Positions 4,392-57,286 of a stretch of DNA of 64,000 bases are shown one piece after another. The stretch is from contig CM060195.1 of NCBI GenBank assembly GCA_030549335.1, forward strand, positions 1,103,501 through 1,167,500, in the 5' to 3' direction. The stretch comes from Pontederia crassipes (lineage: Eukaryota > Streptophyta > Magnoliopsida > Commelinales > Pontederiaceae). The position numbers were made by a program, and so were the translations under genes. The notes under the pieces were generated by a model, which was not told the origin of the DNA, did not search any database, and saw only the letters and a program-made list of their open reading frames with translations. Every line of letters starts with the position of its first letter. The first letter of the stretch is position 1.

Positions 4392-7340
4392 ATGGCGACT
4401 GCCTCGAAGCGACTCGCCCATGGCGTCCGCCGTCTCCTTCTCCACCACCAGTTCCCCTCCAGACCCCTTCCTCCGCCTCCCATTACCCCCTTGCAAAGCC
4501 GCCTCTTCCATTTCGCCTCCCCGAGCCCCTCCAAAACCTCTCTACCGGGATCTCAAATCGGAGCTCTCTCACGTTTCCTCTTTCCCGCACCCAAATCTCT
4601 CCATCCGAGCTCGAGACGTTTGCACATTCTTGGCTCTGGCGTCAGGGGGCTCGGACGATTCTCTGAAAGAGGCAATTTTCTTGCCCGCGGCCATGGTTTC
4701 CGGCTTTTCTCGGCGAAAAGTTCGAATCTTGGAAAGTTCGGTGGGCTGGGAAAGTCCGGGGCCTGGAAGCCGATGGGCATCGTCGCCTCAACGGTTGCGC
4801 GGTATCGCGAAGCGGCCGGGCTGCAGGTAGAGGCCTTCTGGAAGAGGAACTACATGTTCCTCGTCGGAGCCTTGGGGATCGTCGTCTGCATCGCGCTGTG
4901 GCGGATAATGTTCGGTATTGCTAGCACTTTCGTCGGGCTGTCGGAAGGGATGGCCAAGTACGGGTTCCTTGCTCTGGCCACCGCCATTGTGTGCTTCACA
5001 GTGAGTTGTAGTGCTTCACTTCATTTTGTGCAATGTGTAGGACAAATTTTGGCAATATAGATGTATGGTTAGCTCTTACTAAAAGAAAATGATTGCAAGT
5101 GGCATATACTGTGTGGATTGCGAAGTTTGTGAATTTTGCAATTCGAAAGTGACTTGTTGTCAGTCCATATTAAATACTAGGAGAAATTTGGATGCTTAGA
5201 GCTAATAAAACTGAAATGTCTTGGAAGCTCTTGTCATGCTAGCTAGTGAGGACAACGGCTATGAATTTTGAGCCTGCGCCTCTTTGCTCCAAGAGTACAC
5301 GTCATTATACCAAATGGATACAATGATGGTGAGACTCGTTTACAGAGTGGTTTAACATATGTATAACTGTCTTTTTTAGCAATATCAACTTAGAGCTGAA
5401 TGATAATTTCAACAAATACAATGAAACATTCTCAAATAAATACATAGAAATACTTGAGTAAGAACATATGAAAGTATACACTTATACCAAAAGTGATGAT
5501 AAATAATGCACTGTGATTTTATAATTACCATGAGAAAAGAAAATTGGTTATTTGTGAAAAGATAAATGGTTGACCCCACAAATAGATGATGCACTTAATC
5601 AAAGTCAGGAATAACTTGGGATTAACTGTTATTGTGCTTACTCTGTGACTTCTTACTAATGAGAAATTCTGTGCTCCTTGTAGTTGCTATAACAAATTCT
5701 ACTTAGTTGTCCTGACATTAGCATAATTGTTGTGAAGTGGCTTTATACAGTTGTTGCAAAAAATCAGAGAAGCTTTCGGAAGGAAGCCTTTCATTACCAA
5801 TTCCTTTTTTGATTGGTTTTTTTATCATGTCATTATGCTACCATTTGCGATCTATAGTGTCCGTGTTGAAAGAAGCAAAACATGCCTAATTTATTCATAA
5901 TTGCCTAATGTTGGATGAATGACAAGTAAAACGACAATGAGAAAATAGTAGGTAAAGGACTAAAACATGTGAGAAGTCCGCCATTAAACTTTTTAAATTC
6001 TCCTAAGAAAAATTAAACTTTTTAAATTATCTCCTCTGTGATCCTGTCCCATCAAAATCAAGTACGAATAGTTCTTCCCTTTCTCATGGAGTTCTTGAAA
6101 AGTTGACATATTCCTACTTATTGATTAGTTTATTAAGATGATATGATTCCTCATATACAATATGGACGGCTCATTACTAGAGGTATTCTGTAAATTGGGT
6201 AGTCAAATTTTCAGTATCTAAAGTACTTCTTTTTTCCAGGGCATATATGTTCGTGCTAGATTCACTCTTAACCCAGACAAGATTTATAGAATCTCTATGA
6301 GGAAATTGAATACGTGTGCTGCAATTCTTGAGGTTCTGGGAGCTCCCCTAACTGGGACAGATGTGAGAGCGTATGTGATGTCAGGAGGTGGACCAAAATT
6401 GAAGAACTTCAAACTGAAGCTTGGTGGTGAAAGGTGTTTCCTCATTTTTCCCATCCGAGGATCTGAAAGAAGAGGTCTAGTAAGTGTTGAGGCCAAGAAG
6501 AGGAAAGGGCAGGTAATTTTTTCATTACCATACATTTTTGTTTATGCAAATTTCTTTGACGCATAGCATGTCTTTGTGTTATAAACATTCTTGCCATTAA
6601 GTTTTGATTGCAATCAAAATGGTTATTGCTATGAGATATTGAATAAGTTGTTAGCCTGTGAGATATTGAATAATATATATAATTCTATTTGCCACCTTAT
6701 AGATCTTTAGTCTACCAGAATAGCCATTCAACTAGCAGAACCCTTTTCCAAGTCTGAGATTGATGATCCCAAGTCTGAGAATAAGCTTTTTAGTTTTTCA
6801 CTCTTTTTTTTTTGTGATGGAGTGGTTAGCTTCTTATGTTAGTGGAAGTGATCTCTCAGGAGGCTAGTATTTGTATTATTACATATACAAAATACTGAAG
6901 TAATATGTTTTTCTCTTGGCAATGCCATGCTTTTGACATTAATTATTGATAAGAACTTTCTATGCTGATCGGTATCCATCTTTTCACCTCTCAAATTGGT
7001 ATGCTTGAAACAGACTTTCTGGATGATACTTTCTTTTTTGCAGTATGATATTAAGCTGCTTGCAATTGATATACCTATGGCAACTGGACCTGATCAGCGA
7101 TTGTTCCTTATTGGTGATGAGCAAGAATATAAAGTTGGAGGTGGTTTGATATCTGAATTAAGGGATCCCATTGTAAAAGCATTGGCTGCAGAAAAGGAAT
7201 TCGAAGATCTTGATCAGAAGGAGGACGAAGAAGATGAAATTAGAGAACGTGAGGAGGCAGAAAGAAAGCAGCGAGAGAAAGAAGAAAGAGCCATTGAAGA
7301 GGCAGAAAGAAAGAAGTCCAAGGAGACAGAGATAAGATGA
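4392..7340 (+). CDS. Predicted mitochondrial inner-membrane protein with Coa1/Tim21-like domain
   Basis: Exons 4392-5000, 6240-6512 and 7044-7340 join in frame (phase 0 introns, GT-AG) to give 392 aa. The ATG sits in a good context (ATGGCG). Residues 1 to about 110 are rich in Arg, Ser and Pro with almost no acidic residues, like a mitochondrial presequence. Two hydrophobic segments follow: about 154-174 (YMFLVGALGIVVCIALW) and about 190-208. The region 204-320, with LEVLGAPL and GLVSVEAKKRKGQYDIKLLAI, resembles the Coa1/Tim21-type fold, in which a Gly-rich loop is followed by a V-E-A-x-K strand. The C-terminus from about 345 is a charged Glu/Lys/Arg coiled coil. Known Coa1/Tim21 proteins act in cytochrome oxidase assembly or inner-membrane protein import. 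That role is inferred here from fold resemblance only. GGCCCA motifs precede the gene. AATAAA-like sequences near 7450 may mark the 3' end. Confidence 0.72.
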
Positions 7341-24619: not shown

Positions 24620-26562
24620 ACAAGATAGGTACTAAGAAAAATTAAGAGCGTGAGGAAAAATAGATAGATTATAATTTAGATAGAAAGTAACAAAAATGTT
24701 ACGAATTATAGCATTTTTGGTAAATGTTATAAATTACTTATTGAACAGTTCATATTGCATACTTTTACTTTAAAAATAATTTTTTTAACAATGCTATTTT
24801 TTAAAGTTAATTCAACCAATTTGTATTCGATAGTAACTCACTTATCACCTAGTTAATAACATTCATATTGCATGTTGTTAGATTTCATTATATAAGAACT
24901 AGTGTGATGGCTCGGGCGATGCACACATAATATAAAATTAGATGAATTGTATGTTTATAAAATAAGTAGATATTAGTTTGATATTTTAAAATTATTTAAA
25001 GAATATGTAATTTTCTTTGTGTCCCATTTATTTTACTCTCTTCTTAGAAAAAATATTATCATTTAAGTTAGAAATATTAGTCTATTTGATATCTATATGA
25101 ATTTCACAATACATATAATTATATATTATATTTGTTTCAATATATTGCTCTAATTATTTGGATTATGAAAATTTTAAATACATGATGAATACTTAACGAT
25201 ATATTCATGCAAATGATGAATTATTCTTATTTTTTTGTGAAAACCTTGTATTATTTTGTTAAATGTTATGTATTATTATTATTATTATTTAGTGTAAAGA
25301 ATTTAACTATTTAATTGGATAATTAAACTTAAATGTCTGGCTATTGCTATATTTGTCCATGATTGCAAATAGGTAGAAATAATATTTATAAAAAAAAATC
25401 AACATAGTCATTGGTTCTAAAATCCATATTAGCTCTATCATTATTAAGCCACTTCTGCAATAATGATATTTAGTTGTTTATTTTCAACATATGCAACTTT
25501 AACATTGTAGATGATGCACACAATATACAATAAAACTTTAATAAAATAATTTATTCAACACTAATTATTATAATATAAAATAATTCGTACTTGTTAATAT
25601 TAATAGTTATTTATCTAATATCATGGATCTTCCTAAATTATGATCTTTTATGGGATGGACCTTGAATTTGTTCATTAAGTTACACTATTATTTTTTTTGA
25701 AATTATAACTTCCTAAATATTATTAATTATTTGTTCATTTGTGCTGTTGTGAAGTGCATTGAAGATCACAAACTTCAGTCTGCCTTAAAAAATGTAATCA
25801 TGCCTTTATGTGGGTTATGAATTTATTTAAATATAATAAGAAATTAATATACCTTCATAGCATCTTCTGTTCTATAGGGATACTGAGCACATCTCAGTCA
25901 TTGTTTTACTTATCAACAAATTTGATCAAAAGTTATTAAATCATATCATTTAAGTGCATCATTTATTTGAATCGTTGATCAGTGAAGTGAATCAACAACA
26001 AAGTAGGAGGTGATCTAGAGGTACATTAATGTCTTATAATAATGCTTTTATCATTTTATACTATTATGCTCTTATGAGTTTTAAAAATACATTCAAATAT
26101 AATTACATATATATGTTAATAATTTTATATATCATTTTAAAAATATTGTATTATAGTACATATATTATTATTAATTTCCTCACTCAATTTAAAAGTATTA
26201 AATTATGAAAGAAGTACTTAGCATAAATTCTACTATTATTCTTAGTTAATTTAATTTAAAATAGTAGATTAAAACTAAATTTTAAACATAAGCCATGTGC
26301 GATGTATGTTAGACATAGAAAAGTGATCTAATCAAAATTTTATGACAAAATATAGCATATGTTTGTATTTCTAGAAATATTTAAAATATAAATAATATTT
26401 ATTTTGTAAGAAAAAAATTATAATTTTAAATTTATACACAATACGAACAATTTTTGCATCATTTTAGCATTAATCTATTAACAATGTATGTTAACTTAAT
26501 CTTGTGCATTCGTATCGGGAAGAACTTAGCTTCCTCTTTTTCCTATGTTTGCTACATTGTTC

Positions 26563-26770
26563 TCCAGAGATGTCTCTGGAAAACATCCGAAAAGTCCCTT
26601 ACGACTTCAATTGTTTGAGCTTCATGGTTAGCATTTGTCTAATATCCTCTGCATCCACTCCTCAACATTTTCTGGGCTTTAATTGCAGACACCATCATTT
26701 TGGTTGTAGTCGAGGGAGTGCGAACATATGGTGACTTGAGGACCCTTTTGTGTATCGATAAAGATTTTCT
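26563..26770 (-). repeat. Left terminal redundancy of the permuted element
   Basis: Matches 33881-34102 in direct orientation, sharing for example ACGACTTCAATTGTTTGAGC and ACCATCATTTTGGTTGTAGT. It encodes the linker between protease and RT up to the DISG motif, where homology ends. Compared with the right copy it lacks about 15 bases near 26640. Confidence 0.85.
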
Positions 26771-26818
26771 TCAGCCTGCAATGTAAATATACGTCGTGGT
26801 AGAACAACCAGTCCATAC

Positions 26819-28142
26819 CTAAAATGATGTGTAATCCTCCATGGGAATGATGATCAAGTCTGCAGAAAAATTTCTTCCATCTACCTCTATGGGTACATTC
26901 GGAAGATACTTCTTAGTATGAATAGTACCCATAGGCATTGTGATGTCTAGCGGACAATCAATATCTTGTACTTTCATATTCAACATAGCAGCCAAATCCT
27001 TAGAACTGAAAGAATGGATGGCACCAGAATCAAATCGGATTGTAGCATGCATATCAGCTATAGGAATTGTAACTTGTATGACCTCATGATCATCGTGATC
27101 TCCCTTGGCTCGCATATTGTACACCCTGCCTTGAACTAGCTTTCCTGGACTTTCGCCCTTATCTTTGTCATGCTCATTCTTCCTTAAATCTGGGCAATCT
27201 CCAATGAAATGACCATGCCGACCACATTGGATACATACACCTGTCTTGCGGCGACATTCTCCCGGGTGAAACTTTTGACAATGAGGACAGGGGTTTCTAT
27301 TTTGTTGTTGTTCATTGTGAGGAACATAGGGCCTTCTATTATCTTCCCTTTTACGATCATCTCTCCTGTCATGCTTGATGAGTCTTCTTTTATCCCAATG
27401 CGGCTTGCCTAGATCGAGAGATCCTGTTGGTGCCTTTCCCTTCTGTTGTGTCTTCAACTAGGCTTCATGTTCACTTTCAAAATCATAAGCCAATTATGTT
27501 GCATCATCTAAATTTTGGCAACGCCCACTTATAACTTTCTCTTTCAGACTGGTGCGTAATCCACTGATGAACCTCTTTGCTCGGGACCTGTCAGTCTTCT
27601 CCATAGTGCAATATTTCTCAAGCTGCAAATAGTTGGTCAAGTACTGGGCCACCATCATATTTCCTTGATTCAATTGCAGGAATTCTTCTTGTTTTTTTAT
27701 CTTTCTTGTACTGAGGGAAGTAGCGTTCCTCAAATACTTCTTTAAAATTCTTCCAAGTGATAGTAGGCTGACCAAAGAATTTTGTGTTTTTGGTGGCCTT
27801 CCACCAATTCTTCGCGTCGCCAGTTAGACGATTAACAGCATACACAAAATTTTGACTTTCAGCACATTGCATCTCTTCAAAGGTCTCCTTCTTGGTGTCC
27901 ATCCATTCCTCTGCTTTGTCAAAATCTTCAGTGCCAACAAATTGAGGGGGTTGTAGTTTGAAGAATCCGTCAATTGTATCCTTAGAGGTCTCCTTTTGTT
28001 GCTCTTTTTGGGTAGCACGCAATAATCTTTCTAAGAGGTTGTTATGTTCATCAACTATAAGGCCAATAGTAGTCTGCGCTTGTTTATCCCCGTAATCTTC
28101 TTGCTCAGCAGAGGAAGTAGATGGGACTCGTTTTGGCGACAT
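26819..28142 (-). pseudogene. Gypsy gag and protease, frameshifted
   Basis: The gag start at 28142 opens MSPKRVPSTSS and includes the capsid-like W-W-K and F-x-x-x-Y-F-P features (TGDAKNWWKA, FEERYFPQY). The frame shifts near 27690 and again meets stops near 27460-27490. The downstream part has a CCHC zinc knuckle (CIQCGRHGHFIGDC) and an aspartic protease active site reading FDSGAIHSF, where the usual Thr after DSGA is Ile. It ends at a stop at 26819. The capsid would package element RNA. As it stands the unit is inactive. Confidence 0.8.
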
Positions 28143-28296
28143 CTACATTCACACAATGATAATAGGATAACATCATATTATAACAGTTCAAACTTTTAAA
28201 AGTCCACATACCTTTTTCTTGATGATGTTGTGGTGGCTCATGACACTTGCACATGTACTCTTGCACTTTTAGGACATCAAAAGAGTCCTAACCTTA

Positions 28297-28307
28297 GGTT
28301 GATACCA
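28297..28307 (-). promoter_or_regulatory. Primer binding site of the permuted gypsy element
   Basis: The minus strand reads TGGTATCAACC directly after the LTR end ...ATTACAACA. The first eight bases match the 3' end of plant initiator-Met tRNA (TGGTATCAGAGC). The position fixes the LTR 3' boundary and confirms minus orientation with gag downstream. Confidence 0.7.
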
Positions 28308-31013
28308 TGTTGTAATGCCCTGAAAATACACCCGAAAGCACCATCGAATTTCCCTTCGACACGTGTCCGAATGCACTTCCGGAGCGCTACTCTTGACTTT
28401 TACTTTGACTTTAACTAACTCAAGATTAGTCAACAAAAGGAAACTCAATTGAGGAAACAAACTTAATTATATACATAAATGTCTTTAATGCAGAAATAAA
28501 ACTTCATAATTCAAATAAAAGACTTCAAATAAATACAACTCTAAAGATGTTGCTTTAAACATAGCAACACTTTAAAAATAAGAAAGATATAGGGACTTAG
28601 ACTAGAATACTTTTCTTCATGTGCAAGCAGTCTTGTCATGAGCATCACCATCAAGCAAAGCATCAGGACCTCTATTCCTGCACATCTGCAGGATCCGGTA
28701 TAGGGGAGAAATTCTCATAGTGAGTATTACTAAGTAACGTCCATCCTAAAAATAGCATTCATATGCATACATTCATAGTCATAAAATTATAAAACATATC
28801 ATTCTTTTCATAACCCGACATAAATAACATAACAAAGGCATCTGAGTGCAACATATATCATAAATAAAAAAACATTCATAGACTATGAACGTACCTTTCG
28901 TCACTTTCATTTCTTTTTGTTTCATCTTTGCTTTTTTTAACTTTCATCATTCTTTCTTTAACTTATGCCTTAGAAGTTATACATTTAACTTCTTTCTTTA
29001 ATCTTATTATTTTGAAGGGCTCTTCTTTTTCTTAGGGTACATAATGTCACTTCATGCATCATCTCGTCAATGGCTATACACACCATGACGGGGCTCTCAT
29101 TATGGAGCAAGAATTCAAAGATTCTAATTGGTTGCACAGGGTGGAGAGTCCCGTACAACAAGAGTGGTGATCATCGGTGTGTTACCTTCACCAGCCCATA
29201 ATTTCACTATTTTGCCTTCAGCTACACTACCCACCCTTATCTTTAATTTTCGTTTTGGCATCTTCGTTCTCCCATATCAATTCATGAGCATGATGACCCT
29301 CCTTTTACAGCTTTTTATCTAGATTAGATTACAATGTCTATATTTACATTTCATAATTAAATTGTGTCATGTAAATCTTAATTTGAAACATCATACCATA
29401 CGAGACATACGCCCTTTGACAATCGACAACTTCTAAACCAACACAATTTAATCTCAGGTTAAGCATAAGAAATCAAAGGACGAACATTAGCTCAATTAAA
29501 GAAGGAACTTCACTTTAATCACAAATACTTAGAGCAAGGGCACTAGCTTAATAGTTAACGAATAAAACATTAACATTGTAAATAAATAACACAAGCGTCT
29601 CGAATTGGTTGAACTCAATACTCAAGGTGCAATGTGCAAGATTTTTGTTCAGGTGCGATAAAATCTAATTAAATGTTCATATTTTGTCACAATATTAAAA
29701 TACGAAATATTTACTTTTAGCATGTTGGTAAAATGCCTAACATTGAGTCTGATCATCTATTATATTTTAATTGTTACATGTTGGTAGTCTGATCATGTAA
29801 AATCATTAACTAAGGTATCATGAGAAGGATTATGACTATATATTATATTATATTATATGTAATGTTAACATCTGAGTGCAAGTCTTTGAGAATGCTACAT
29901 GGAAGATCATGCAATGTGTATAACGTATAAAATGACACATCAAATTTGTCCTTTTCTTCACTGTCATGTAACAATTAGCACTAGACAAGAATAATCATTA
30001 CATTTGGTTCATGCACTCTAACCCCATCAGCACCTACCGAGAGTAAAAGGCCTCCCTAATTAAATATGTATATATATGATAGACTATATCAATTTATCTC
30101 TTAGTAATATGCTAGCACCAGTATAGACGAACGTGGCATATTAATGTATTAGTCATTATTATGGTCAACATTGCGTTCAAGTAAAGTAACATAAGGTAAT
30201 AAAATTTACATGACCCGATGATGCATAGCTCGGCCATATAAAATAACACGTTAAATAGCAAGAAGTCGCCATTACATCCATAGTAAAAGCTAAGGCAGTT
30301 TAATCTATTTCAAAGTGAATAATCTGAACCTATCGTAAAGGATGTGAACATGCAATTTAAGACACGGAGCATCGATCATGCAAATGATGTGTACATACTT
30401 TCTTTGCATAAATATGAATCAAAAGTACCTAATCTATGAACTGTCGCAGGGATCATATCCAATTATCCGAACTATGAACGTTAATTCATGAATTTAATCT
30501 AATAAAGTTTAAACTCAGCATTCCCTAATTATTTCGTAATGGGTCTAGGAAACATTATCGCTTTCTACTAAGAAGACGATAAAATAAATTGGATCCTCGT
30601 TACATACCGCTTTGACGATAGCTTTTTCGTTGTGTTTCCGATCTTCCTTTGTCCTCTTTGTTATCTTCCCTAAACCTACGTTTTCCTCTTCCCTTTGTTC
30701 GTTCTCACTGGTTACTATTGTTGAAATCTCGTCGGAGTGAGCATTGGAAAAACAACAAAGGAGGAAAAGGTCACCGTGATTTTTACCTCTACTCGTGATG
30801 TGAAAATAAGAGGCAAAAGAATGTTTTCCCCTGGAAGAAAGAGATGGATTCTACTAGGTGCAGAACTAACGGGGGATTGGTGCTGTGATGCAACAATTTT
30901 GATGGGTAAAGGAGGAGGACGTGGGGGTGTGCAAGGCCTAAGAACCGGTCCCCCTTGTGACCTATTCACCCCATTTTTATTATTATTATTGTTTTATACA
31001 CGTGGATGTTGCA
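28308..31013 (-). mobile_element. Single LTR of the permuted gypsy element, about 2.7 kb
   Basis: On the minus strand it starts TGCAACATCC just after the end of pol and ends GGGCATTACAACA next to the primer site. Thus pol lies on its upstream side and gag on its downstream side, and no second LTR copy exists in the window. The region is non-coding and contains AT-rich stretches and a short GC-rich patch at 30890-30960. The exact upstream boundary is my best estimate. Confidence 0.6.
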
Positions 31014-34000
31014 TAATAACCTTCTTAAAAATAAATTCGTCCTCGAATTTACGAAAAATAGAATCTTACCAAATAAACTCGAAAATTCTTTGCGCATTTC
31101 TTCTTCGAGTTTCCAAGTAGCTTCATCTTCTTGATGATAGCTCCATGCCACCTTCACCATTGGTACCTCTTTATTCTTTATGCGCTTCTTTGTATACTCG
31201 AAAATTTTGTTCGGTGCTTCTTTGTATGATAAATCCTCTTCCAAGTTGGGTTCCTCAATTCGAATTATTTTTGCATCGCCGTGCAAATATTTTCGAAGCA
31301 TGGTGACGTGAAAAACGTTATGCACACGTCCATAAGATGGTGGCAGTGCCAATCTACAAGCCACTTCGCTTACCAAATCCAAAATTTCAAATGGACCCAT
31401 ATATCGAGGGCTTAACTTTCACTTTTTGCTAAAGCGTATTACTCCTTTGGTCGGTGACGTCTTTTACATAATCATATCACCCACTTTATAAATTTGCTCT
31501 CTTCTACCATTGTCTGCATAAGTATTTTGCCAACTATGAGCTACTTTCATCCTTTTTCTAATTAAGTCCACTTTCTTTGCATACTCTTGTGCTTGCTTTA
31601 CTTGTTCCTCCTTCCAACAAGTAGGCGAATGACAAGGCCGACCGTATAGAACTGCAAAAGGAGCCATGCGTATGTTGGAATGATAGTTATTATTGTAAGC
31701 AAACTCTATCAATGGTAGGTGATCATCCCAATTGCCATGCCAATCCAAGACACAAGCTATCAGCATATCCTCAAGAGTTTGAATTGTCCTTTCTGATTGT
31801 CCATCACTTTGCGGATGAAACGCGGTATTGTAATTCAGCCTAGTACTGAATGCCTTTTGGATGCTCCTTCATAATCGAGACGTGAATCGAGGGTCTCTAT
31901 CTGACATTATGGAAACTAAAATTCCATGTAGTTGGATAACCTCCTTAAGATGCAAGTCCATCAGACTCTCGATCGACTATTTTTCTTTCATTGCCAGGAA
32001 GTGAGCTGTCTTCGTTAATCTGTCAATAATTACCCAAATGGAGTCATGGCCCTTCTTAGTGCGGGGTAGACCTGTAATAAAATCTATCGTGATTCTCTCT
32101 CATTTCCACTCTGGAATTCCTAAGTCTTGAAGTAGTCCATACGGTCTTTGATGCTCCACATTCACTTGTTGACATACCAAGCATTTAGAGACATACTCGA
32201 CTATCTCACGCTTCATGTTGTTCTACCATAAGGTTCTCTGTAAGTCTTTGTACATTTTGGTACTGCCTGGATCGATCGTGAACTTTGACTTATGGCCTTC
32301 ATCTAAGACTTCGCTTCTCTTCGTAGTGCTTCATTATTTGGAACCCATAAGCAATCACGATACTTGATTCTGCCATCCTTTGAAAGTGTCATGCCAGTTT
32401 GCTCCTTGCTATACAAACTAACCATATATTGATATTCTGTATCTCTGACTGAGCTTTGATGATTCTGTTCACTAAGTCTAATTGGATTCCAAGATGTACC
32501 ATCAATGTACCTCGGTGATTGTTGAATTTCGGCCTCCATTGGATAACTTTCTCAAACATCTTCCATCTATGCACTCGTAAGCAAGCAAGTGAACCTTTTC
32601 GACTGAGTGCGTCGGCAATCGTATTTGCTTTGCCCGGATGGTAGTTGATAAAGACTTCATAGTCCTTTAATAATTCCATCCAGCTTCGTTGTTGAATGTT
32701 AAGATCCTTCTACGAGAAGACATACATCAAACTTTTATGGTTAGTGTAGACTTCGAATTCTTCACCATAGAGGTAGTGACGCCAAATTTTCAAGGCAAAG
32801 ACGATAGCATCTAGCTCCAAATCATGAGTTGGATAGTTGACTTGATATTTTTTTAACTGCCTTGAAGCATATGCTACCATTTTTCCATGCTGCATTAGAA
32901 CACATCCTAGACTTGTACCACATGCGTCGCTATAAACCACGTAGCCATATAGCCACCACTGCCTGAGGGTATAGTGAGGATTGATGCAGTGGCGAGTCTA
33001 GACTTCAATTCTTGGAAACTGCTCTCGCACTTCTCCGACCACTTGAATTTGACATCCTTCCTTGTTAGATTGATCAAGGGCGCTGCTATTTTGGAGAAGT
33101 CCTTTATGATCCTTCAGTAATATCCTGCTACGCCTAAAAAACTCTGAATCTCGGTTGTATTCTTTGGCTGCCTCCAATTGGCCACTGTTTCTACCTTTGC
33201 CAGGTCAACGTATATGCCTTGTTTAGAGATAACATGTCCGAGGAATATAATTTCATCCAACCAGAATTCACATTTGAAAAGCTTGACGTAGAGTTGGTTC
33301 TTCCTCAATGTCTCCAATACTATCTTCAGATGTTCTTGATGTTCTTTTGGATTCGACGAGTAGATCAATATATCATCTATAAACACAATGACAAATCGAT
33401 CGAGGTATGGTTGGAACACTCTATTCACAAGGTCCATGAAAGCTGTAGGAGCATTCATCAGTCCAAAAGACATTACTAAAAATTCGTAGTGTCCATATCT
33501 AGATCGAAATGCCATCTTTGAAATGTCTTCGTCGGCTACTCTTAGCTGATAGTAGCCGCTTCATAGATCAATTTTTGAGAATACCGAAGCTGATGATAGC
33601 TAATCGAATAGGTCATCAATACGTGATAAGGGATATTCTTAACCGTTGCTTTATTTAGCATCCTATAGTCGATGCAAAGTCGAAGTGATCCATCTTTTTT
33701 TCTTTACGAACAACACTGGTGCACACCAAAGCGAGACACTCGATCTTATGAAGACTTTATCAAGTAACTCCTGAATTTGCCTCTTTAGCTCTTGCATTTC
33801 TGCAGGTGCCATTCTATAAGGAGTGGGGTAGTCCTTGGCATGAGATCGAATCGAAAGTTGACCTCTCTTCGTGGTAGTAATCCAGAGATGTCTTTCGGAA
33901 AAACATCCAGAAAGTCGCTTACGACTTCAATTGTTTGAGCTTCATGGTTAGCATTTGTCTTGGTGACGCTTGTTAGATATCCTCTGCATCCGCTCCTCAA

Positions 34001-34102
34001 CATCTTCTGGGCTTTTAATTGCAGACACCATCATTTTGGTTGTAGTCGAGGGAGTGCCGCATATGGTGACTTGAGGACCCTTTTGTGTACCGATAAGGAT
34101 TG
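31014..34102 (-). pseudogene. Gypsy pol (RT, RNase H, integrase, chromodomain), broken
   Basis: Pieces read in order on the minus strand. The linker contains [16 protein letters not shown] (about 33900). RT has the catalytic FIDDILIYS near 33370. RNase H begins [14 protein letters not shown] near 32935. The integrase has the catalytic-Glu region HPQSDGQSERT near 31810, then LPLIEFAYNNNYHS. The tail has KIFEYTKKRIKNKEVPMVKV and a W-rich end (WSYHQEDEATWKLEEEMR) typical of chromoviral elements. Multiple frameshifts and stops separate the pieces, so no active polyprotein is encoded. At its upstream edge it lacks gag and protease, which lie instead at the other end of the insert. Confidence 0.85.
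33881..34102 (-). repeat. Right terminal redundancy of the permuted element
   Basis: Direct repeat of 26563-26770. Homology stops at 34102, after which the sequence becomes AT-rich flank unrelated to the protease region found next to the left copy. Confidence 0.85.
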
Positions 34103-36861
34103 TTTTTACTAATTACTTATGAATCTAAAAAAATAAAACCTCTAAAAGAGAAAGTCATGTACAATTACAAAAAAACAAAATTTATGCATACAAATACATT
34201 ATTTACATAAAATTAATTGGCTAGATTTGGAAGTTCATGCAAACAATTCCCAGAATATTTGAAGTTACAAATCTCACATAAATTAAAAAAATGATGAATA
34301 CTATCATAACAAAACATATGGTCAGAAATTAACTTGTGCATTAATTTTTTTTACAATATTAGATCAAAATAGATGATCTGTAACTGTGTTTGCACAATAC
34401 ATTTTTGTACATAATGAGATTGCTAACTTTTAGAAAATAGTAATTACCTTATAAATATAATTGGTACATGCTCTTTTAGTAATATAAAAAGAGTAAAATC
34501 AATATCCATTTAAATAGGTGGAGTTAATATTCTTGTTTTTCATTAAAATTTTAAATAATAATTTTGTACAGAGAATACATAATGCGATGGCAGCGTCGAC
34601 ATAAGAATTGAAAGAAAATAAAAGTGACTCATAACTCTAAACAATAATAATCTTGAAAAAGTTAAAACATAAAATAGAATAATTTGTTGAAGAAAAATGC
34701 AAGTAAGAAAAATCTCACTTAAAACTAACATAATAAAGAAAAAAATATGAAAAGAATGAGCCATAGAAAGAACTAAATTGAATAAAAAAGAGAGAAAAAA
34801 AGAATAATTCCCATGAGAAATAAAAAAATAATGATATCTTAAATAAATAAATAACTTTAGAGAGTAATATTTGTATCAAAGATATAAACAATCTTGAGAT
34901 AAAGATATGAACATAGTATTGACACATCCGGATGAGATAGTTGATTGTGGAAGTACTTTTGATGTAAATGTCTTATTTATAGTAAGTTCTATTGTTAATG
35001 TAAATGAATTATATTTCGTAACCGTATAAGTAACCACCTAATAAGATATTATTTTATATTTACAAATTAATTAATCATCCATTTATTTGACTAATGACTA
35101 TAATAAGATATTAATCGATCTCTTTTATACTAATAAATAATTCATAAGACAATTACACTACATGATATATATATTGATTCATTTTATACTAATAAATAAT
35201 TAATAGCATGATTGGACTATACTATAGACACATGTCAGCATCTATTATGCTAGGTTTCTTCTTAAATACATTAAGCATTATGACGTTAATGATATTTTTT
35301 TAAAAAAATAATGATATAATTATGCCAGATGTGTTTTTTGTAATATAATATTTTCCTCACACTCTAACTAATAACTGAAGCATAAAGACTTTTTTCACTA
35401 TCATTATTTTTACTACATAAAATCAAATTCTAGAATAAGGGAGAAATGAGGAATTTACTTGTAGATTATTTTTAAAATTCTAAAGAAAAAGTTGGGAAAT
35501 TTACTGTAAAATAATAATTGAGATATCATGCTAATGATATATTGTAAAATTATGTAGATATCATTTATCTTCTTTGGCATTAAATTAATTAACCACATCT
35601 ATATTAGTATATTAGCGACTTTAGTATTGAGTTATAGTTAGTACTACGTTCAATTCAACTACGTTTGATAGTAACCATAATAGTTTATTTAAATACTTTA
35701 GTATTACGATAGGATCAGTTAATATACTAAGTTAACATAGCCACATTTAGTATCCATTATTTAACTACTTTATTATCAATTAACTAATATACCCATCTTT
35801 CCATCACAAATATTATCATAGTTTAATAATTAATTCAAGTTATTCAAATAGAAATGTATAGTTATAATAATTGTATAGATAATAGATATGATTATTATAT
35901 AATTATCATATTTTGTAATCATAACTTATATTTTTAATTTATAATTAATATTTTTTATGGACACTTGTCAATATATTTTTATGCCAAGTGTTCATTTCCT
36001 CGTTGCAAACTTCTTTGCTTTTAATATAATTACGATGCAGGAGTGTTATAAAATAATTAATAAATATAAAAGGAATCATTTTTTAAAAAAATAGATATTA
36101 TTATATTTATAAATAATAAATTATAAAATAATAATAGTTAAAATTGATGTAGTTAACAAAAGATTTTTCGCTGATAATCAAACTAATCTATTATTTTAAA
36201 ACTTAATGATCACATCAATTTACTCACATTTTCCTCCTCTTTTAAAAAATAATATTTAATTTATTATTAAAATATATACTAATGTCATATTAATATTCTG
36301 TAAAACACATAATTAAAAATACTAACAATAAATATAATTATTTTTAATGACGAATCTCTGATCTCTAGAGTTTTGATATCTTATATATCTCCTCATAATT
36401 ACGTATATCTGTAAACTATTTTAGTGTTTAAGACATTAGTAATTTGCTACATTCGATCTCTTTTTTTTTCCTTCAACTATTTCTATTATTTGATCTTAAA
36501 TTTCTAATTAACTTCCCACTTAACATATAAATTATTATTTCAATTAGAAAAAATCATATGATTCGTCTTATTGGTCAAAGTCAAATTTCATAAAAGTTAT
36601 CCTTTTATTTTTTAAATCACTTATTGGCATTTCCTTATAAAATCAAATAAAACAAATACAAATCATCTTAATAAATGTCATTAAATAAATAATGATTTAT
36701 CGTTAAATATCATTTCTATATTGTACGGACATGGAAACTTGTCAACCATTATTATAATAAAATTATATGGTTAGATAATTACTCATGTAGTGTAAATAAT
36801 TGTCATAATTAATTTATTAAAAATTATTATACCACAAAAGAATAGTATCTCTTTATCAAAT
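34103..36861. other. AT-rich DNA, partly Helitron-like
   Basis: No gene. The part 35870-36035 resembles 61700-61940 (shared run ATTTATAATTAATATTTTT and a TTAATATA end motif), supporting a Helitron 5' end. From 36036 to 36861 I see only AT-rich unique sequence. Confidence 0.45.
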
Positions 36862-39411: not shown

Positions 39412-40280
39412 GGGAAAAATGGACCGTCTCCCCTACGTGCACATCCGCCCGATGCACATCAGATGGATGCGCATTATCAATTGGGAGCCAGTTCGCGCAC
39501 GATCGACCGTTCGCAATGGCTCGATCCCGGTTCGCATAGGAATGATTCAGCGTGGGGGAACAAATGGGCTTGTCAAAGAACCGACCTCCTCTTTCACCCT
39601 AATCTTCTCTGTCGCCCGCCTCTTCTCTCTCTCCCCTCTCGCGACGGCATCGTCGCCGACCCACATGTACCCCCGCCGCGACCTATCGGATCTGCGCGGA
39701 GTCTCACCGGCGACGGCCTTCGCCGACCCCCCGACCAGACCTGCACATAGCGGCGACCCTCCGGCGACCTCGCTGTACTCGAGCTCGCCCTTCGCCGAGC
39801 ACGATGACGGCTTCGCGACCTCGAGCACCGGCATGGCCTCCAACACCGGATCTCGCCATTCGCCGACCTCGCCCTTCGCTGAGCATGACGAATCTCGCCC
39901 TTCATGCGACCTTGAGCACCGGATCTCGCCCTTCGCCGAGCACGACGATCGCGATGCGACCTTGAGCACCGACCCCGAGCACCGGATCTCGCCCTTCGTC
40001 GAACCCCTCGCCGACCCCACCGATCAACCGCGCCAAGCCTCACCACCCACCGCAACCCCTCGCCGACCTCAACCCCGTCGACCCCCTCACGTGCAACGGC
40101 AATACCTAGGCAATCTCGTGCAGACCTCGCCTCGCCATTGAACCCCTCGTCGACCTTGCGAACCCCGCCAAGCCTCGCCGACCAGATCCGCGATCCACGA
40201 CTGCACGACCGCCAATCAAGCCTCGCACGCCGCATGACCGCCAAATCGTTATTTGTTAATCATGCTGTAATTGACTTTTT
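39412..40280 (+). repeat. Left arm of the inverted-repeat element
   Basis: GC-rich in its middle. It contains about four imperfect copies of TCTCGCCCTTCGCCGAGCAC between 39780 and 40010. A long open frame through the arm reflects the GC-rich repeats and matches no protein I recognise. The arm ends near TTGTTAATCATGCTGTAATT, which also appears inverted near 40960. Confidence 0.65.
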
Positions 40281-41052: not shown

Positions 41053-41369
41053 TGTTAGACGTACGCCCATAATGGGCCACGGAGCTTGGCCCAAAGTTCA
41101 TTTCATTGCATAACTCCTCTCAATATGTGGTTCCGTAAACCATATCCTAAACTCTATAAATAGAGTTTGAATCCTGCATGAGTAAATGGGATGTACTGTG
41201 GTATCATTCTTGTCGAAATTCTGTTGAATTCTGTGTAGGTACTTTGAATTGTGATAGTGCGTCGGCTTTCCGGAGTGATCGTCGTCTGTCCTCGAATATA
41301 AAAATACAACGTAAAGGAATCTTATTAATTCCGCTGTAATAGATTAGTTTTTCTATATTAAAACCTTCG
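41053..41369 (+). repeat. Copia 5' LTR
   Basis: Starts TGTTAGACGTACGCCC. It ends AAAACCTTCG where the 3' copy has AAAACCTTCA, so the final base appears mutated. The box CTATAAATAGAG at about 41154 is a likely TATA element. TGTCAGAGCC follows directly, a partial match to the initiator-Met primer site. Confidence 0.9.
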
Positions 41370-48514: not shown

Positions 48515-48838
48515 TGTTAGACGTACGCCCATAATGAGCCATGGAGCTTTGCCCAAAGTTCATTTCACATGCAGTTGCATAACTCCTCTCAATATGTGGT
48601 TACGTAAACCATATCCTAAACTCTATAAATAGAGTTAGAATCCTGCATGAGTAAATGGGATGTACTGTGGTATCATTCTTGTCGAAATTCTATTGAATTA
48701 TGTGCAGATACTTTGAATTGTGATACTGCGTCGGCTTTCCAGGGTGATCGTCATCCGTCCTCAAATACAAAAATACAACGTAAAGGAATCTTATTAATTC
48801 CACTGTAATAGGTTGGTTTTTCTATATTAAAACCTTCA
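48515..48838 (+). repeat. Copia 3' LTR
   Basis: Starts TGTTAGACGTACGCCC and ends ACCTTCA. It matches the 5' LTR closely, with an extra ATGCAGTTG-type insertion near 48570. Followed by the AGTGC target duplication. Confidence 0.9.
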
Positions 48839-48843
48839 AGTGC

Positions 48844-49526
48844 GTTCGGCGGGATCATGGCTGTGCGAGGTCGGCAGCGTGACGGGGTCGGCGGGGTGGG
48901 CGAAGTGGTGACGGTAGGACGGGTGAAGCAGCCTTGGAGCGAGCGAACTCGGCTACGATGGGTTGGGCGAAGCGGCGACGGCGGGGCGTGTGAAGTGGCC
49001 ATGGGGAGAGCGAACTCAGCGGCGGCGGTGCGGGCGAAGCGGCAACGGCGGGGCGGGTGAAGCAGCCGTGGGGTGAGCGAACTCGGCGACGGCGGGGCGG
49101 GCGAACTTGACGACAGAAAAGAAAGAGGGAGAAAAGGAGAAAAGGAAAGGAAAGAGGGAGAAACGGGAACCTTCTCGGGAACCATCATTGTGCTCGGCGA
49201 AGGGCGAGCTCGAGCATGGCGAGGTCGCCGGCGGGTCGCCGTTGCGCGCAGATCTGGCCGGGGGTCAGTGGGGGCCGTTGCCAGTGAGACTCCATGCAGA
49301 ATCGGTCGGTAGCGGCGGGGGTACTCGTGGTTCGGCGACGACGCCGTCGCGAGAAGGGAGAGAGTGAAGAGGCGGGCGAAAGAGGAGATTAGGGCGAACG
49401 AGGCGAGGAGAGAGGATATTAGGGCGAAAGAGGGGTTCGCTTCTTCGACAAGCCCTTTTGTACCCCACGCTGAACCGATCCTGCGCGAATCGGGATCGAG
49501 CCATTGCGAACGATCGATCGTGCAAA
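48844..49526 (-). repeat. Middle piece of the right arm of the inverted-repeat element
   Basis: Reverse complement aligns with 39490-40240: CAATGGCTCGATCCCG, then TTCAGCGTGGGG, then TCTCGCGACGGC. Its interior (48860-49110) is a GC-rich minisatellite built on GGCGACGGCGGGGCGGGCGA, which differs from the left arm's repeat. So the arms have evolved separately. Interrupted at 49522-49526 by the gypsy insertion. Confidence 0.65.
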
Positions 49527-51445
49527 TGTAACGCCCCCAAATCGACCCCCGCCACGAGGCGAAGACCAATATGGAGACGCTACGGCATGCTATAACTTGA
49601 CCATAATATTGACCATATCTCAGTCAAAACTGAGACACGTCAGCGGAAAGAAAATAAAATAAAAGAAGATAACATAATTATACGGAAGTCTAAAAGTGGC
49701 TATATCATTGCTAAGAAAATAAAATAGGTTCTACATCATGAATCTAAAATGCGGAAGGTAAATGAAAACTAAATAACACTCTAAAAGCCCTATGGTTCAT
49801 GTGTCGTTTTATCGCCAGAACTTCATCACCACACGCCTACTCCACCACGTCACTGACCTGGTCCTGTGGAAATCAGACACAGGGGAGGAGGTCCTCCCGT
49901 AAGCTTTATAGCCTAGTGGGGAACCACATGATATACAGTGCATGACATGAATATAGTAATCAGCGATAAATAATCATGCTTAACTTGAACGTGAAAGATA
50001 ACATATCAATATCATGGATCATAATGAGAATAAGATCAATAGATATCATGAATCATGAGGATCAATAATATATATTAAACTTGGAATCATGACATACTTG
50101 ACTTGACTTGAACTTGCTTCTTGATCTTGGTTATTAATTAGCAATCATGGTGACTTTAGGTGCCTTTAATTCTTGGGGTATGCCCAGCAAACGATACGAC
50201 CTTATGCGAGTCAATGGGTGATCAAACCATGACCAAGGGAGCGACCCTTATCTTGATGCACTTGGCTTGGACTGACAACCCATCATTAATCTTTCATCTG
50301 AATTTATTAATCGCTTTAATAACTTGTAGCTCTTTGTTCTTGATTCAATCGATACGATAGGATCAACGTGAAATAAATCAATAACAGAGTAAATCATGTA
50401 AATCAGTGAGGGATCTCTGTGGGGTCAGAAAATATGATCAATCATATATATATAATATCTGGATAAAAGGAAAATAATTAATAAATATAATAAAAGATTT
50501 TCTGGGGAATCGGTCGACCGGTTCAGGGGAACGGTCGACCGACTGTCTGCGGGTTGGTTGATCCGTTCAGTTGAACGGTCGACCTGATGGGGAAGGATCG
50601 GTCGACCGGTGACAGGAATCGGTCGACATGTGCAGAAAGCGGCTGCATGCAAGTTATCGGTCGATCGGTTGCCGCGATGCATACGGACCGGTCGACCAGT
50701 AGACATCCAGAAAACTTGCAGAACCCTCGAATTTTGTGAATTCTTCGGTGCAATCTCAATCTAACCTAATTCCTATCTCCTAGCAAATCAATCACATAAT
50801 AATAGATCAACAAACAGTGAATTATGCATACAAATAATCAATCAATCAATCAATTCAAGAAAATCAAGCAAGGCAAAATAAGGAACTTGAACCATATTTT
50901 CCTCTTCTTCTTTACTTGTACGATTAGGGCATGATTTAACATTATTCAGGGGTCATGCAAGGTGATTTCGATTCACCCACCTGGTCACGATGGATCCTAC
51001 CCTTGATCCGTTAAAAATTCGTTTGAATTCCGCCCCTGTTTCCTCCCTGTTCTTCCTCTCGGTCACCCTCTGCAGAAATTTCAGCAAGGGCGTAAAAAGG
51101 ACAGCACTCGAAAGACGATGAAAGGAGAACAAGTAGATTTCCGCACGCCTTGAAATTGAGATGAAGGAGAGGAGGGATTTGTCGCTGGATTTCCTGCAGC
51201 CTGGCGGCGCTCCAGAAGTCCAGCAGGGTCTCATGAGTTTTGCTAAGGGAGAAAGAATTTTAACAAATTTGGTCTCATCTTATATAGACCCCTCTCTCCT
51301 AAACAAATATGATTAGATCAGATTTAAATCTTCTTCCTTTACCAACTTTGAGTGGCATTGGGTCTTTTTATTTCTTTCTCTCAACCGTGCGTTTAAATTC
51401 TGGTTTATTTTCCTCTTTTTTTTTATATTTTTGTTGGTTGTTACA
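49527..51445 (-). repeat. 3' LTR of the gypsy-type element
   Basis: Near-identical to 55365-57286; by eye only a few dozen differences over 1.9 kb. It contains a 190-bp cluster of palindromic GGTCGACC motifs at about 50511-50700 and a C/T-rich end. Confidence 0.93.
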
Positions 51446-51475
51446 TTCTTACCCCCTTAAAAAAAATTCGTCCTC
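51446..51475 (-). promoter_or_regulatory. Polypurine tract of the gypsy-type element
   Basis: Minus strand reads AAGGGGGTAAGAATGT with a poly-T run before it. It directly abuts the TGTAAC LTR start, the expected plus-strand priming site. Confidence 0.7.
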
Positions 51476-51715
51476 GAATTTTGCACTAGGTAGGGAGCTT
51501 ACCGAACAGATGTGGAAATTCTTGGCGCATTTCCGATTCAAGTTCCCATGTCGCATCATCGCCTTTATGGAAATGCCAAGCTACTCTGACCATGGTTACG
51601 TCATTGTTCTTCTGACGTTGCACCTTGCGCTCCACTATGTGCGTTGGATACTCAGCGAAGGTCAAGTCTATGAATTCTTAACGTCAAGCATCATCATCTA
51701 ATAGGATTTCTGATG
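51465..51715 (-). pseudogene. Integrase C-terminal/chromodomain remnant
   Basis: On the minus strand it reads TFAEYPTHIVERKVQ, then NNDVTMVRVAWHFHKGDDAT, then WELESEMRQEF, the same kind of tail as in the permuted gypsy element (VPMVKVAWSYHQEDEATWK). Upstream of it the coding sequence is lost within about 100 bp. Confidence 0.75.
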
Positions 51716-54700: not shown

Positions 54701-55348
54701 ATTAAACCCCTATGTTGGTAGACTCATGGAACCACATAAGTCATAATGATAAAGCATAACATAGACATGCTTAATTTCACTTCTACTATTTGAAATCATC
54801 TCACACCTACGTGTTGTGTGAGTCGAATTCTTTAATTACCCTTATAATTCCCTCATTTATTTTTTTTTAAATCTACATCTCTTTGCAACTGATATGCCTA
54901 TTCATTTCCCTCTTCATACTGCTGCAGTCAGCAGAAGAAGTCTGTGAATAAAGCAATCATGAAAGAGAAGGAAAACATGAATTATAAGAAACGTAATCGT
55001 TTCTTATATTTTATTCTTTAACTATCTATAAGACTCATTTCTTTCACGTAGGTATATTTATTCACATGCTTGTTACTTATTATATTCCAATTTGTTTGTA
55101 ACATTTATGACCCTTTTTGTCAAGTCACTAATAACATTTAAGTTGATTCCTACCATACAGAAATAATCTCCTTAGGAATCAACCACTCATGTGAAATACA
55201 TATCAATACATCAATAAAGAATAACACAAAGCAAGAAATATCTTACTTGTACTTTACGGTGGAGGGTGTGGCGACTGCTCGGCGATAGCACATGAACCAA
55301 TACCATACTATTCTATACACTAGGACGTCAAGAGAGTCCTGACTTTAG
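51716..55348 (-). other. Decayed interior of the gypsy-type element
   Basis: No gag zinc knuckle, protease or RT motif is readable. A stretch near 52530-52660 faintly resembles the minus-strand RT entry region of the permuted element, so some of this is very old pol. It includes three 58-bp repeats with AATGGATCGCAACCCAGGCT (51823-51965), a C16 tract (53928-53943) and an AT microsatellite (54138-54157). Confidence 0.55.
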
Positions 55349-55360
55349 GCTCTGATACCA
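55349..55360 (-). promoter_or_regulatory. Primer binding site of the gypsy-type element
   Basis: Minus strand TGGTATCAGAGC is a 12-of-12 match to the plant initiator-Met tRNA 3' end. It lies four bases inside the 5' LTR boundary. Confidence 0.9.
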
Positions 55361-55364
55361 TAAA

Positions 55365-57286
55365 TGTAACACCCCCAAATCGACCCCCGCCACGTGGCGA
55401 AGACCAATATGGAGACGCTACGGCATGCTATAACTTGACCATAATATTGATCATATCTCAGTCAAAATTGAGACACGTCAGCGGAAAGAAAATAAAATAA
55501 AAGAAGATAACATAATTATACGGAAGTCTAAAAGTGGCTATATCATTGCTAAGAAAATAAAATAGGTTCTACATCATGAATCTAAAATGCGAAAGGTAAA
55601 TGAAAACTAAATAACACTCTAAAAGCCCTATGGTTCATGTGTCGTCTTATCGCCAGAACTTCATCACCACACGCCTACTCCACCACGTCACTGACCTGGT
55701 CCTGTGGAAATCAGACACAAGGGAGGAGGTCCTCCCGTAAGCTTTATAGCCTAGTGAGAAACCACATGATATACAGTGCATGACATGGATATAGTAATCA
55801 GCGATAAATAATCATGCTTAACTTGAACGTGAAAGATAACATATCAATATCATGGATCATAATGAGAATAAGATCAATAGATATCATGAATCATGAGGAT
55901 CAATAATATATATTAAACTTGGAATCATGGCATACTTGACTTGACTTGAACTTGCTTCTTGATCTTGGTTATTAATTAGCAATCATGGTGACTTTAGGTG
56001 CCTTTAATTCTTGGGGTATGCCCAGCAAACGATACGGCCTTGTGCGAGTCAATGGGTGATCAAACAATGACCAAGGGAGCGACCCTTATCTTGATGCACT
56101 TGGCTTGGACTGACAACCCATCATTAATCTTTCACCTGAACTTATTAATCGCTTTAATCACTTGTAGCTCTTTGTTCTTGATTCAATCGATACGATAGGA
56201 TCAACGTGAAATAAATTAATAACAGAGTAAATCATGTAAATCAGTGAGGGATCTCTGTGGGGTCAGAAAATATGATCAATCATATATATATAATATCTGG
56301 ATAAAAGGAAAATAATTAATAAATATAATAAAAGATTTTCTGGGGAATCGGTCGACCGGTTCAGGGGAACGATCGACCGATTGTCTGCGGGTCGGTTGAT
56401 CCGTTCAGTTGAACGGTCGACCTGATGGGAAAGGATCGGTCGACCGGTGACAGGAATCGGTCGACATGTGCAGAAAGCGGCTGCTGCATGCAAGTTATCG
56501 GTCGATCGGTTGCCGCAATGCATACGGACCGGTCGACCGGTAGACATCCAGAAAACTTGCAGAACCCTCGAATTTCGTGAATTCTTTGGTGCAATCTCAA
56601 TCTAACCTAATTCCTATCTCCTAGCAAATCAATCACATAATAATAGATCAACAAACAGTGAATTATGCATGCAAATAATCAATCAATCAATCAATTCAAG
56701 AAAATCAAGCAAGGCAAAACAAGGAACTTGAACCATCTTTTCCTCTTCTTCTTTACTTGTACGATTAGGGCATGATTTAACATTATTCAGGGGTCATGCA
56801 AGGTGATTTCGATTCACCCACCTGGTCATGATGGATCCTACCCTTGATCCGTTAAAAATTCGTTTGAATTCTGCCCTTGTTTCCTCCCTGTTCTTCCTCT
56901 CGGTCACCCTCTGCAGAAATTTTAGCAAGGGCATAAAAAGGACAACACTCGAAAGACGATGAGAGGAGAACAAGTAGATTTCCGCACGCCTTGAAATTGA
57001 GATGAAGGAGAGGAGGGATTTGTCGCTGGATTTCGTGCAGCCTGGCGGCGCTCCAGAAGTCCGACAGGGTCTCGTGAGTTTTGCTAAGGGAGAAAGAATT
57101 TTAACAAATTTGGTCTCATCTTATATAGACCCCTCTCTCCTAAACAAATCTGATTAGATCAGATTTAAATCTTCTTCCTTTACCAACTTTGAGTGGCATT
57201 GGGTCTTTTTATTTCTTTCTCTCAACCGTGCGTTTAAATTCTGGTTTATTTTCCTCTTTTTTTTTATCTTTTTGTTGGTTGTTACA
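55365..57286 (-). repeat. 5' LTR of the gypsy-type element
   Basis: Starts (plus strand) TGTAACACCCCC and ends GTTGGTTGTTACA. The GGTCGACC cluster is at about 56349-56545. TATATAGACC at about 57121 may mark the promoter core on the minus strand. Confidence 0.93.

Follow-up and report, generated by a model that had tools for sequence, protein, structure and literature searches.

A circularly permuted Ty3/gypsy-type unit with one LTR at a site empty in paralogous repeats: a probable captured circle

Introduction

Retroelement DNA is already known to be captured by end joining, and yeast Ty1 is a further case of the capture of retrotransposon DNA at breaks. LTR-sharing tandem retrotransposons are known to retain their outer LTRs and target-site duplications, and in endogenous pararetroviruses (Caulimoviridae) permuted units are joined through illegitimate recombination. 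Retrotransposon DNA is captured at double-strand breaks in mouse zygotes (PMC4516963). The prevailing view is that circles of LTR retrotransposons are a dead end (PMC10462705), and in flies they have been proposed to guard the genome against reintegration (PMC12132167); in fly testes, one-LTR full-length circles made up 43.9% of nomad circles and 73.9% of copia circles (PMC12132167).

Among the matches listed for open-access titles and the starts of abstracts, no report describes a circularly permuted (one-LTR) LTR element in a genome, which is not proof of absence in print. The locus described here has a permuted order, one seamless LTR, the length of one unit and terminal redundancy, and it stands at a site for which there are paralogous empty copies, with target sequence deleted, microhomology at the junctions and no target-site duplication.

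Results

A permuted unit with a single LTR

Within the window, the whole 64-kb stretch of DNA that was analysed, the insert at 26566-34097 reads on the minus strand linker, RT, RNase H, integrase, one LTR, gag, protease and linker. An earlier note had proposed a permuted one-LTR gypsy element with the linker at both ends, and the direct repeat, the order of Pfam matches and a canonical locus on C12 all bear this out; the limits it gave, 26563-34102, agree with ours within the ambiguity of the junctions, where microhomology allows the ends to be placed as far out as 26563 and 34101. The parts of the insert are as follows.

26566..34097, minus strand: whole insert of 7532 nt, a Ty3/gypsy unit in circular permutation and terminally redundant
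33886..34101, minus strand: linker copy (link5), 5' end of the insert on the sense strand
33114..33885, minus strand: reverse transcriptase region, degenerate, with RVT_1 in 33114-33560
32300..33113, minus strand: RNase H region, degenerate, with RT_RNaseH in 32710-32997
31014..32299, minus strand: integrase region with SH3_Tf2-1 domain, the latter in frame 30966-31418
28311..31013, minus strand: single LTR, TGCAACATCC...GGGCATTACA, between the integrase/SH3 end and gag
28297..28307, minus strand: PBS-like TGGTATCAACC, 3 nt past the LTR
27458..28310, minus strand: leader and gag, with Retrotrans_gag in two frames
26819..27457, minus strand: zinc knuckle (by eye) and protease (RVP_2)
26566..26766, minus strand: linker copy (link3), 3' end of the insert, with a 15-nt deletion

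Ten pieces of the element were compared with Pfam, and the models matched were RVP_2, Retrotrans_gag (two pieces), RVT_1, RT_RNaseH and SH3_Tf2-1. Four of the ten pieces had no Pfam match, including 31464-31868, which from its position and sequence we take to be the integrase core, and no chromodomain model matched among the ten. Judged by its gag-PR-RT-RNaseH-INT order and its SH3/chromodomain-type end, the element is a Ty3/gypsy chromovirus, presumably of the Tekay/Del lineage.

The LTR, bounded by TGCAACATCC at 31013 and GGGCATTACA at 28311, is joined seamlessly to the end of pol on one side and to PBS/gag on the other, and TGGTATCAACC at 28307 presumably serves in primer binding. Its 3' 1.08 kb matches the LTRs of the retrieved family stretches, and for its 5' 1.6 kb the only match among these is a partial one at C6. 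An LTR of about 1.08 kb, at first suggested by the many family matches that begin at one place, was rejected in favour of one of 2.7 kb because the sequence of the LTR start directly adjoins the integrase end (C12, C7) and because 5' halves vary. The repeat period, 7.32-7.34 kb, equals the internal region plus one LTR, and the internal region comes to about 4.63 kb (7335 minus an LTR of 2703).

One retrieved locus, C12 around 3303813-3295990 (-), has the complete canonical order LTR-gag-PR-linker-RT-RNH-INT-LTR, with an internal region of 4585 nt from its coordinates; this order and the comparable internal length indicate that the window element is permuted. Self-integration was considered for two other loci, at C9 and C12:65.24 Mb, and was dropped because the former keeps 6 nt inside the LTR end and in the latter gag is preceded by an LTR end and PBS of its own.

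The terminal linkers

The two linker copies are 91% identical without gaps, with 15 nt missing from one; by BLAST, 26563-26766 matches 33881-34101 at 86.0% counting gaps. The direct repeat can be followed in four gap-free stretches, of 75 nt (88%), 46 nt (89%), 44 nt (100%) and 47 nt (91%), whose starts lie 7320-7336 apart. The K2P distance of the pair is 0.094; of the 54 other pairs that the 11 compared linkers form, 13 have a smaller distance. The insert's two linkers have no state private to the pair, the linker tree does not pair them, and they are not clearly sisters.

Because linker divergence cannot separate one molecule from two, a tandem or concatemer source has to be weighed, namely a linear piece just over one unit long, from a genomic tandem array (LTR-internal-LTR-internal-LTR) or an extrachromosomal concatemer, that was end-joined at a break. 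We regard this origin as possible, if rather unlikely. It requires no added step for the redundancy, and many other linker pairs are as close as the insert's; the family, moreover, does have tandem or LTR-sharing forms, at C7:1260237-1275732 and C12:3287234-3303813, the latter with a second RNH-INT-LTR after the canonical element. However, a length of one unit plus only about 0.2 kb would have to be chance, and no donor was found, the best matches being spread over four different loci. These best matches elsewhere reach 86% for the 3' part of the LTR (40 of 177 candidates scored), 90% each for gag and RNase H (among the retrieved copies compared) and 83% for the whole integrase end, with part matches of up to 87% (40 of 1962 candidates scored).

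Flanks, empty sites and junctions

Both flanks belong to another repeat, AT-rich (23-25% GC), and not to the insert's family.

25100..26565, plus strand: left-hand flank, host repeat; homologous to other copies as far as 26565
34098..35600, plus strand: right-hand flank, host repeat; homologous to other copies from 34098 onwards
26563..26565, plus strand: left junction microhomology TCC (host CTCC, family linker AATCC; by eye)
34098..34101, plus strand: right junction microhomology GATT (host AGATTG, family linker GGATTT; by eye)

Left homology ends at 26565 in 4 of 54 non-self matches, and right homology begins at 34097-34099 in 14 of 52. The earlier note had asked for an empty site in relatives; paralogous copies inside the same genome supply one, the element being absent and the flanks 163-176 bp apart in six of the seven retrieved copies of the host repeat. 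The seventh (C6) has its own deletion at the site and also lacks the element. The permuted order is thus bounded by flanks that adjoin elsewhere in the same genome, and about 165 bp of target was lost at insertion.

As marks of a truncated tandem array the earlier note had named a second LTR just outside either end and flanks homologous to the same family. The flanks, as described, are of another kind, and no LTR of the family was found outside the ends in the rest of the window, where BLAST with eight element pieces found no further family sequence beyond two matches in a different element, one of 71% to the integrase end at 51456-51611 and one of 41 nt to the leader at 55321-55361. These results bear on the possibility that a tandem pair with one LTR in common, inserted by integrase, afterwards lost sequence on either side up to points inside the linker. 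Both tandem forms and truncated copies are indeed present among the retrieved loci of the family, and a family copy at C6 stops, by eye, about 10 nt from the end point of link3. Nevertheless, with flanks only about 165 bp apart in the empty copies, and with no outer LTR or other family piece found in 64 kb, two deletions would have had to remove kilobases of element but almost no host and to end within 0.2 kb of each other in pol, and we regard this history as highly improbable.

The junctions carry microhomology of 3 and 4 bp, and random junctions would reach or exceed these two lengths with a probability of about 0.002. Compared with the retrieved empty copies, neither junction has a target-site duplication. 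A duplication of AACAAT at both junctions, suspected by eye, was rejected because at the left junction the empty copies that keep the stretch have CATGTGATCTCC or almost the same letters. The signature of integrase-type insertion is absent: the insert ends in the PR/RT linker and not in LTR termini, and there is no duplication.

The earlier note had offered two routes. The first, a circle opened in pol and inserted, is supported by the paralogous empty sites, the target deletion and the microhomology, which point to a single insertion of a permuted unit. The second, integration through a single crossover at a short homologous piece, which here would be a resident linker fragment, would account directly for the redundancy, and integrase-independent, homology-based insertion has been described (PMC12786077). 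It would require prior insertion of exactly that fragment, however, and the empty copies show no linker at the site: BLAST of link3 against the seven retrieved stretches gave no match, and the whole insert gave only short, weak matches to them. For the C2 stretch, three of four local alignments scored within the range of shuffled sequence; in the fourth, against inverted link5, the score was reached by 10 of 300 shuffles. A crossover of this kind is the least probable of the origins considered, and we give it hardly any credence.

Divergence and lineage

LTR pairs of the family differ by K2P distances of 0.081 in C7 and 0.15 in the canonical C12 element; set against these, the linker-pair distance places the insertion within the divergence range shown by insertions of the family itself. 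Between the flanks and C6, the nearest empty copy, the K2P distances are 0.043 and 0.065, below the linker-pair value, so that the linkers could perhaps already have differed at insertion, a gap estimated from few sites, of unclear significance and between sequences of different base composition.

At diagnostic sites the window element has 56 A and 1 B states in gag (2 other), 33 A and 11 B in protease (1 other), 8 A and 9 B in RT, 2 A in RNase H and 1 A in each linker. The RT tree places it on the clade B side of a split (support 0.919), and the protease tree places it outside the core of clade A (support 0.997). One basal lineage explains both placements, and as we read the part trees both halves of the insert would fit a single lineage at the base of clade A. 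The data also leave room for a mosaic of two elements, for which the RT tree and the mixed RT sites would speak; against this, a single basal lineage accounts for the RT and protease trees alike.

Discussion

The permuted unit with its additional 0.2 kb or so was most likely captured by end joining, and not inserted by integrase or by crossover at a resident linker, because target was lost, the junctions show microhomology, no target-site duplication is seen and BLAST detects no linker in the lost stretch. The best explanation, and in our judgement a probable one, is that a one-LTR circle was opened in the linker and entered the host repeat through microhomology-mediated end joining; the extrachromosomal state, the circular form and the origin of the redundancy are what we infer. 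Such a circle of a Ty3/gypsy chromovirus would have arisen while the family was active. Opening a circle does not by itself give redundancy, and the overlap therefore needs an extra step: the circle may have been opened by a widely staggered break within the protease/RT linker, or it may have been copied through a little over one full turn, and in either case some 0.2 kb would be present at both ends of the resulting molecule. This molecule would then have entered a break in the AT-rich repeat, with loss of some 165 bp of target.

It is also conceivable, if improbable, that the insert is a fossil reverse-transcription intermediate whose redundancy is a flap, as in the central DNA flap. Plus-strand synthesis would have started at the internal purine tract GAAGAAAA, run around a one-LTR circle and overrun by about 0.2 kb, and this plant Ty3/gypsy family would have a second polypurine primer that determined the break point. 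GAAGAAAA does lie directly upstream of the insert's 5' end point, in the other linker copy. We note that a nearby purine run is unremarkable, because there are 47 runs of at least 8 in 7.33 kb.

Among known systems, LTR-sharing tandem retrotransposons likewise read RT-INT-LTR-gag-PR across one LTR, whereas both ends of the window insert are in the linker and its flanks form an empty site. In contrast to Caulimoviridae, the window element combines an LTR with gag, protease and a Ty3/gypsy-type pol end. The captures in mouse zygotes (PMC4516963) are similar in that DNA of LTR retroelements lies in a break with a few bp of microhomology, mostly with no target-site duplication and with both ends truncated. 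Those captures are partial, however, whereas here a whole rotated unit has a single LTR inside and redundant ends, and is found as an old insertion in a genome assembly. A copy of the linker at each end, a single internal LTR with no outer ones, and an empty site, whether paralogous or orthologous, together make up a signature that can be searched for, and that would allow the rate of circle re-insertion to be measured across genomes. One-LTR extrachromosomal circles (PMC12786077, PMC12132167, PMC10462705) share with the window unit a seamless pol end-LTR-PBS-gag and a composition of internal region plus one LTR, but they are free and the window unit is part of a chromosome. Circular forms of LTR retrotransposons are common, and a rotated one-LTR unit that occupies a site with known empty copies would, in a plant-like genome, be an inherited counterexample to the view that they are a dead end.

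Structure of the permuted insert

Read on the minus strand from 34097 to 26566, the insert runs protease/RT linker, RT, RNase H, integrase with its SH3_Tf2-1 end, LTR, PBS-like sequence, gag, protease and linker, which is the order the earlier note had claimed. The linker copies at its two ends, link5 (33886..34101, at the 5' end on the sense strand) and link3 (26566..26766, at the 3' end), align over 221 and 204 nt respectively, in keeping with the roughly 210 bp claimed for them. Their identity is 86% with gaps (BLAST) and 91.2% without, 15 nt are missing from link3, and the period of the repeat, 7320-7336 nt, equals one LTR plus the internal region. Between the two linkers lie:

31013-28311, minus strand: single LTR
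Between the LTR and gag, minus strand: PBS-like sequence TGGTATCAACC

The reading frames are interrupted by stops and shifts. Six of ten translated pieces have Pfam matches (gag twice, RVP_2, RVT_1, RT_RNaseH and SH3_Tf2-1) and the integrase-core piece among the ten has none; we take that piece to be the integrase core from its position in the element, and the element presumably belongs to the plant lineage Tekay/Del.

Empty sites in the host repeat

The genome (1.13 Gb, 43 contigs; the window is C13:1103501-1167500) was searched with each flank, the right query being 34095-35600 and the left query 25100-26590, which extends 25 nt past 26565. Among the best 40 of 181 candidates scored, the right flank has at least 53 matches including itself, and homology starts at 34097-34099 in at least 14 of the 52 non-self matches; among the best 40 of 815, the left flank has at least 55 including itself, and homology stops exactly at 26565 in at least 4 of 54. 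Left and right flank matches adjoin in the same orientation at:

C2:12172585 and 12172754
C9:50733032 and 50732867
C10:27566374 and 27566210
C6:50276241 and 50276411

That the flank homologies are neighbours in other copies indicates that the permuted unit is inserted within a copy of another repeat, the insert ends being the limits of host homology. The empty site that the earlier note proposed to look for in relatives is seen here in paralogous copies from the same genome: the flank homologies are separated by 163, 163, 164, 167, 168 and 176 bp in six of the seven copies compared. Nor are the flanks homologous to the rest of the element's family, as that note had envisaged for a truncated array; they are another repeat. 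The copies on C2, C9, C10 and C5 (two) share 93-96% identity with one another, and the C6 copy, the nearest of the seven to the window, has its own deletion on the left side of the gap. The host repeat also contains local direct repeats (window 26270-26565 and copies L029-L035), and overlapping flank stretches match two adjacent places in each of L029-L035.

Junctions and mode of insertion

By eye, TCC at the left junction is common to host CTCC and family linker AATCC, and GATT at the right junction to host AGATTG and family linker GGATTT. Of 200,000 junctions drawn at random to join the C2 empty copy with a 3.2 kb stretch surrounding the C16 linker, 6.4% had microhomology of at least 3 bp and 2.1% of at least 4 bp, jointly about 0.002. 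About 165 bp of host was lost between the junctions, and there is no target-site duplication at them. The best fit is capture by microhomology-mediated end joining, a single DNA molecule being joined, as we envisage it, into the host repeat. Integrase-mediated integration is ruled out, since the insert is neither bordered by LTR ends nor flanked by the short duplication that this route leaves. The single crossover at a short homologous piece, which the earlier note had offered as an alternative, is very unlikely because it requires a linker at the empty site and none was found in seven empty copies: BLAST of link3 against the stretches from these seven copies gave no match, and that of the whole insert short weak matches only. 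When the C2 stretch was aligned locally with the two linkers, 95 and 58 of 300 shuffles reached the observed scores on one strand; on the other strand 282 and 10 of 300 did, the 10 belonging to inverted link5, a weakly unusual score that we treat as chance. A tandem pair trimmed in place is possible but a poor fit, as two deletions, each taking kilobases of element, would together have cost the host no more than about 165 bp, and both would have to stop at the same point to within 0.2 kb.

Family copies

A genome search with the linker gave 20 matches, which we group into 16 loci, and surroundings were compared, as 20 stretches, for 10 of the 15 non-window loci. The full canonical order LTR-gag-PR-linker-RT-RNH-INT-LTR occurs at one of the ten (C12 ~3303813-3295990, minus strand), with a second RNH-INT-LTR beyond it (3291436-3287234); in the compared stretches the other nine are incomplete, duplicated or rearranged. 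Two same-strand linkers lie within 10 kb at 2 of the 16 loci, the window and C7:1260237-1275732 (L009, L010), where 6.3 kb is duplicated and two gag-PR-linker-RT units are flanked by outer LTRs. The two C7 linkers are identical except at 1 of 225 sites, and an interruption in gag is common to both units, which points to a recent local duplication.

Other rearrangements were seen. At C9:7595808-7597348 (L012, L013) an LTR with 6 nt of the PBS side is joined to an inverted RT-linker-PR piece, TGG being common to both sides by eye. An inverted family pair at C16:39852420-39863314 (L014, L015) is 97.5% identical in its RT parts versus 88-89% in gag and protease, a pattern such as might be left after gene conversion. 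The 5' 1.6 kb of the window LTR (29394-31013) matched one of the compared stretches only, on C6 and in part; the 3' 1.08 kb matched at every compared locus having an LTR match, and the boundary at 29393 recurs across several copies. The 5' halves of the LTR seem to have been exchanged within the family.

Elsewhere in the window, LTRs at 49524-51445 and 55362-57286 are 97.7% identical over 1.92 kb. Within their 3.9 kb interior, only 51456-51611, at 71%, matches the family's integrase end and 55321-55361, over a short length, its leader; tblastn with one translated family piece each for gag, PR, RT, RNH and INT found none in this element, which looks like a young one lacking its own enzymes. A direct repeat (41053-41368 and 48515-48837; ~320 nt, 92% identity, 7.46 kb spacing) and an inverted repeat (39497-39818 and 49175-49523; ~330 nt, 77%) may represent a further pair of LTRs and a fragment.

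Source of the inserted molecule

A one-LTR circle accounts at the same time for the unit length, the rotation and the one seamless LTR, and to that extent the proposal of such a circle opened in pol is supported; the redundancy is not explained by a circle alone, and could come from staggered nicks with filling-in or from copying slightly over one turn. A tandem or concatemer fragment also accounts for rotation and redundancy, but its length would be this near one unit only by chance. The K2P distance between link3 and link5 is 0.094 (12 transitions and 6 transversions over 205 sites). The comparison took in 11 linkers at 9 loci, for which 10 of the 18 non-window matches were aligned and the near-identical second C7 copy was left out; the 54 other pairs, the within-C16 pair included, average 0.131, and 13 of them are closer. 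Link3 and link5 have three common states unlike the majority of other copies, all of which occur in other copies, and are not paired in the linker tree. Divergence of this kind does not settle the choice between circle and tandem or concatemer.

Family LTR pairs (3' 1.08 kb) differ by 0.081 on C7, 0.15 in the canonical C12 element and 0.074 between the middle and last C12 LTRs, and, given 0.094 for the linkers, the event falls among the family's own insertions in divergence. Distances of the flanks to the C6 copy are 0.043 and 0.065, below the linker divergence; the AT-rich host may change more slowly, or the linkers could already have differed at insertion. In trees of the family, gag and protease of the window group with clade A, and RT falls on the side of clade B (support 0.919), its diagnostic sites being divided between 8 A and 9 B. 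These placements might suggest a mosaic of two sources; in our reading a single basal lineage of clade A accounts for them.

Relation to known systems

One-LTR circles are described as common (PMC12786077). Individual parts of the mechanism are already known, and we found no comparable case in the open-access literature searched. The combination of a whole rotated one-LTR unit, its redundancy, end joining and empty sites seems to be new.
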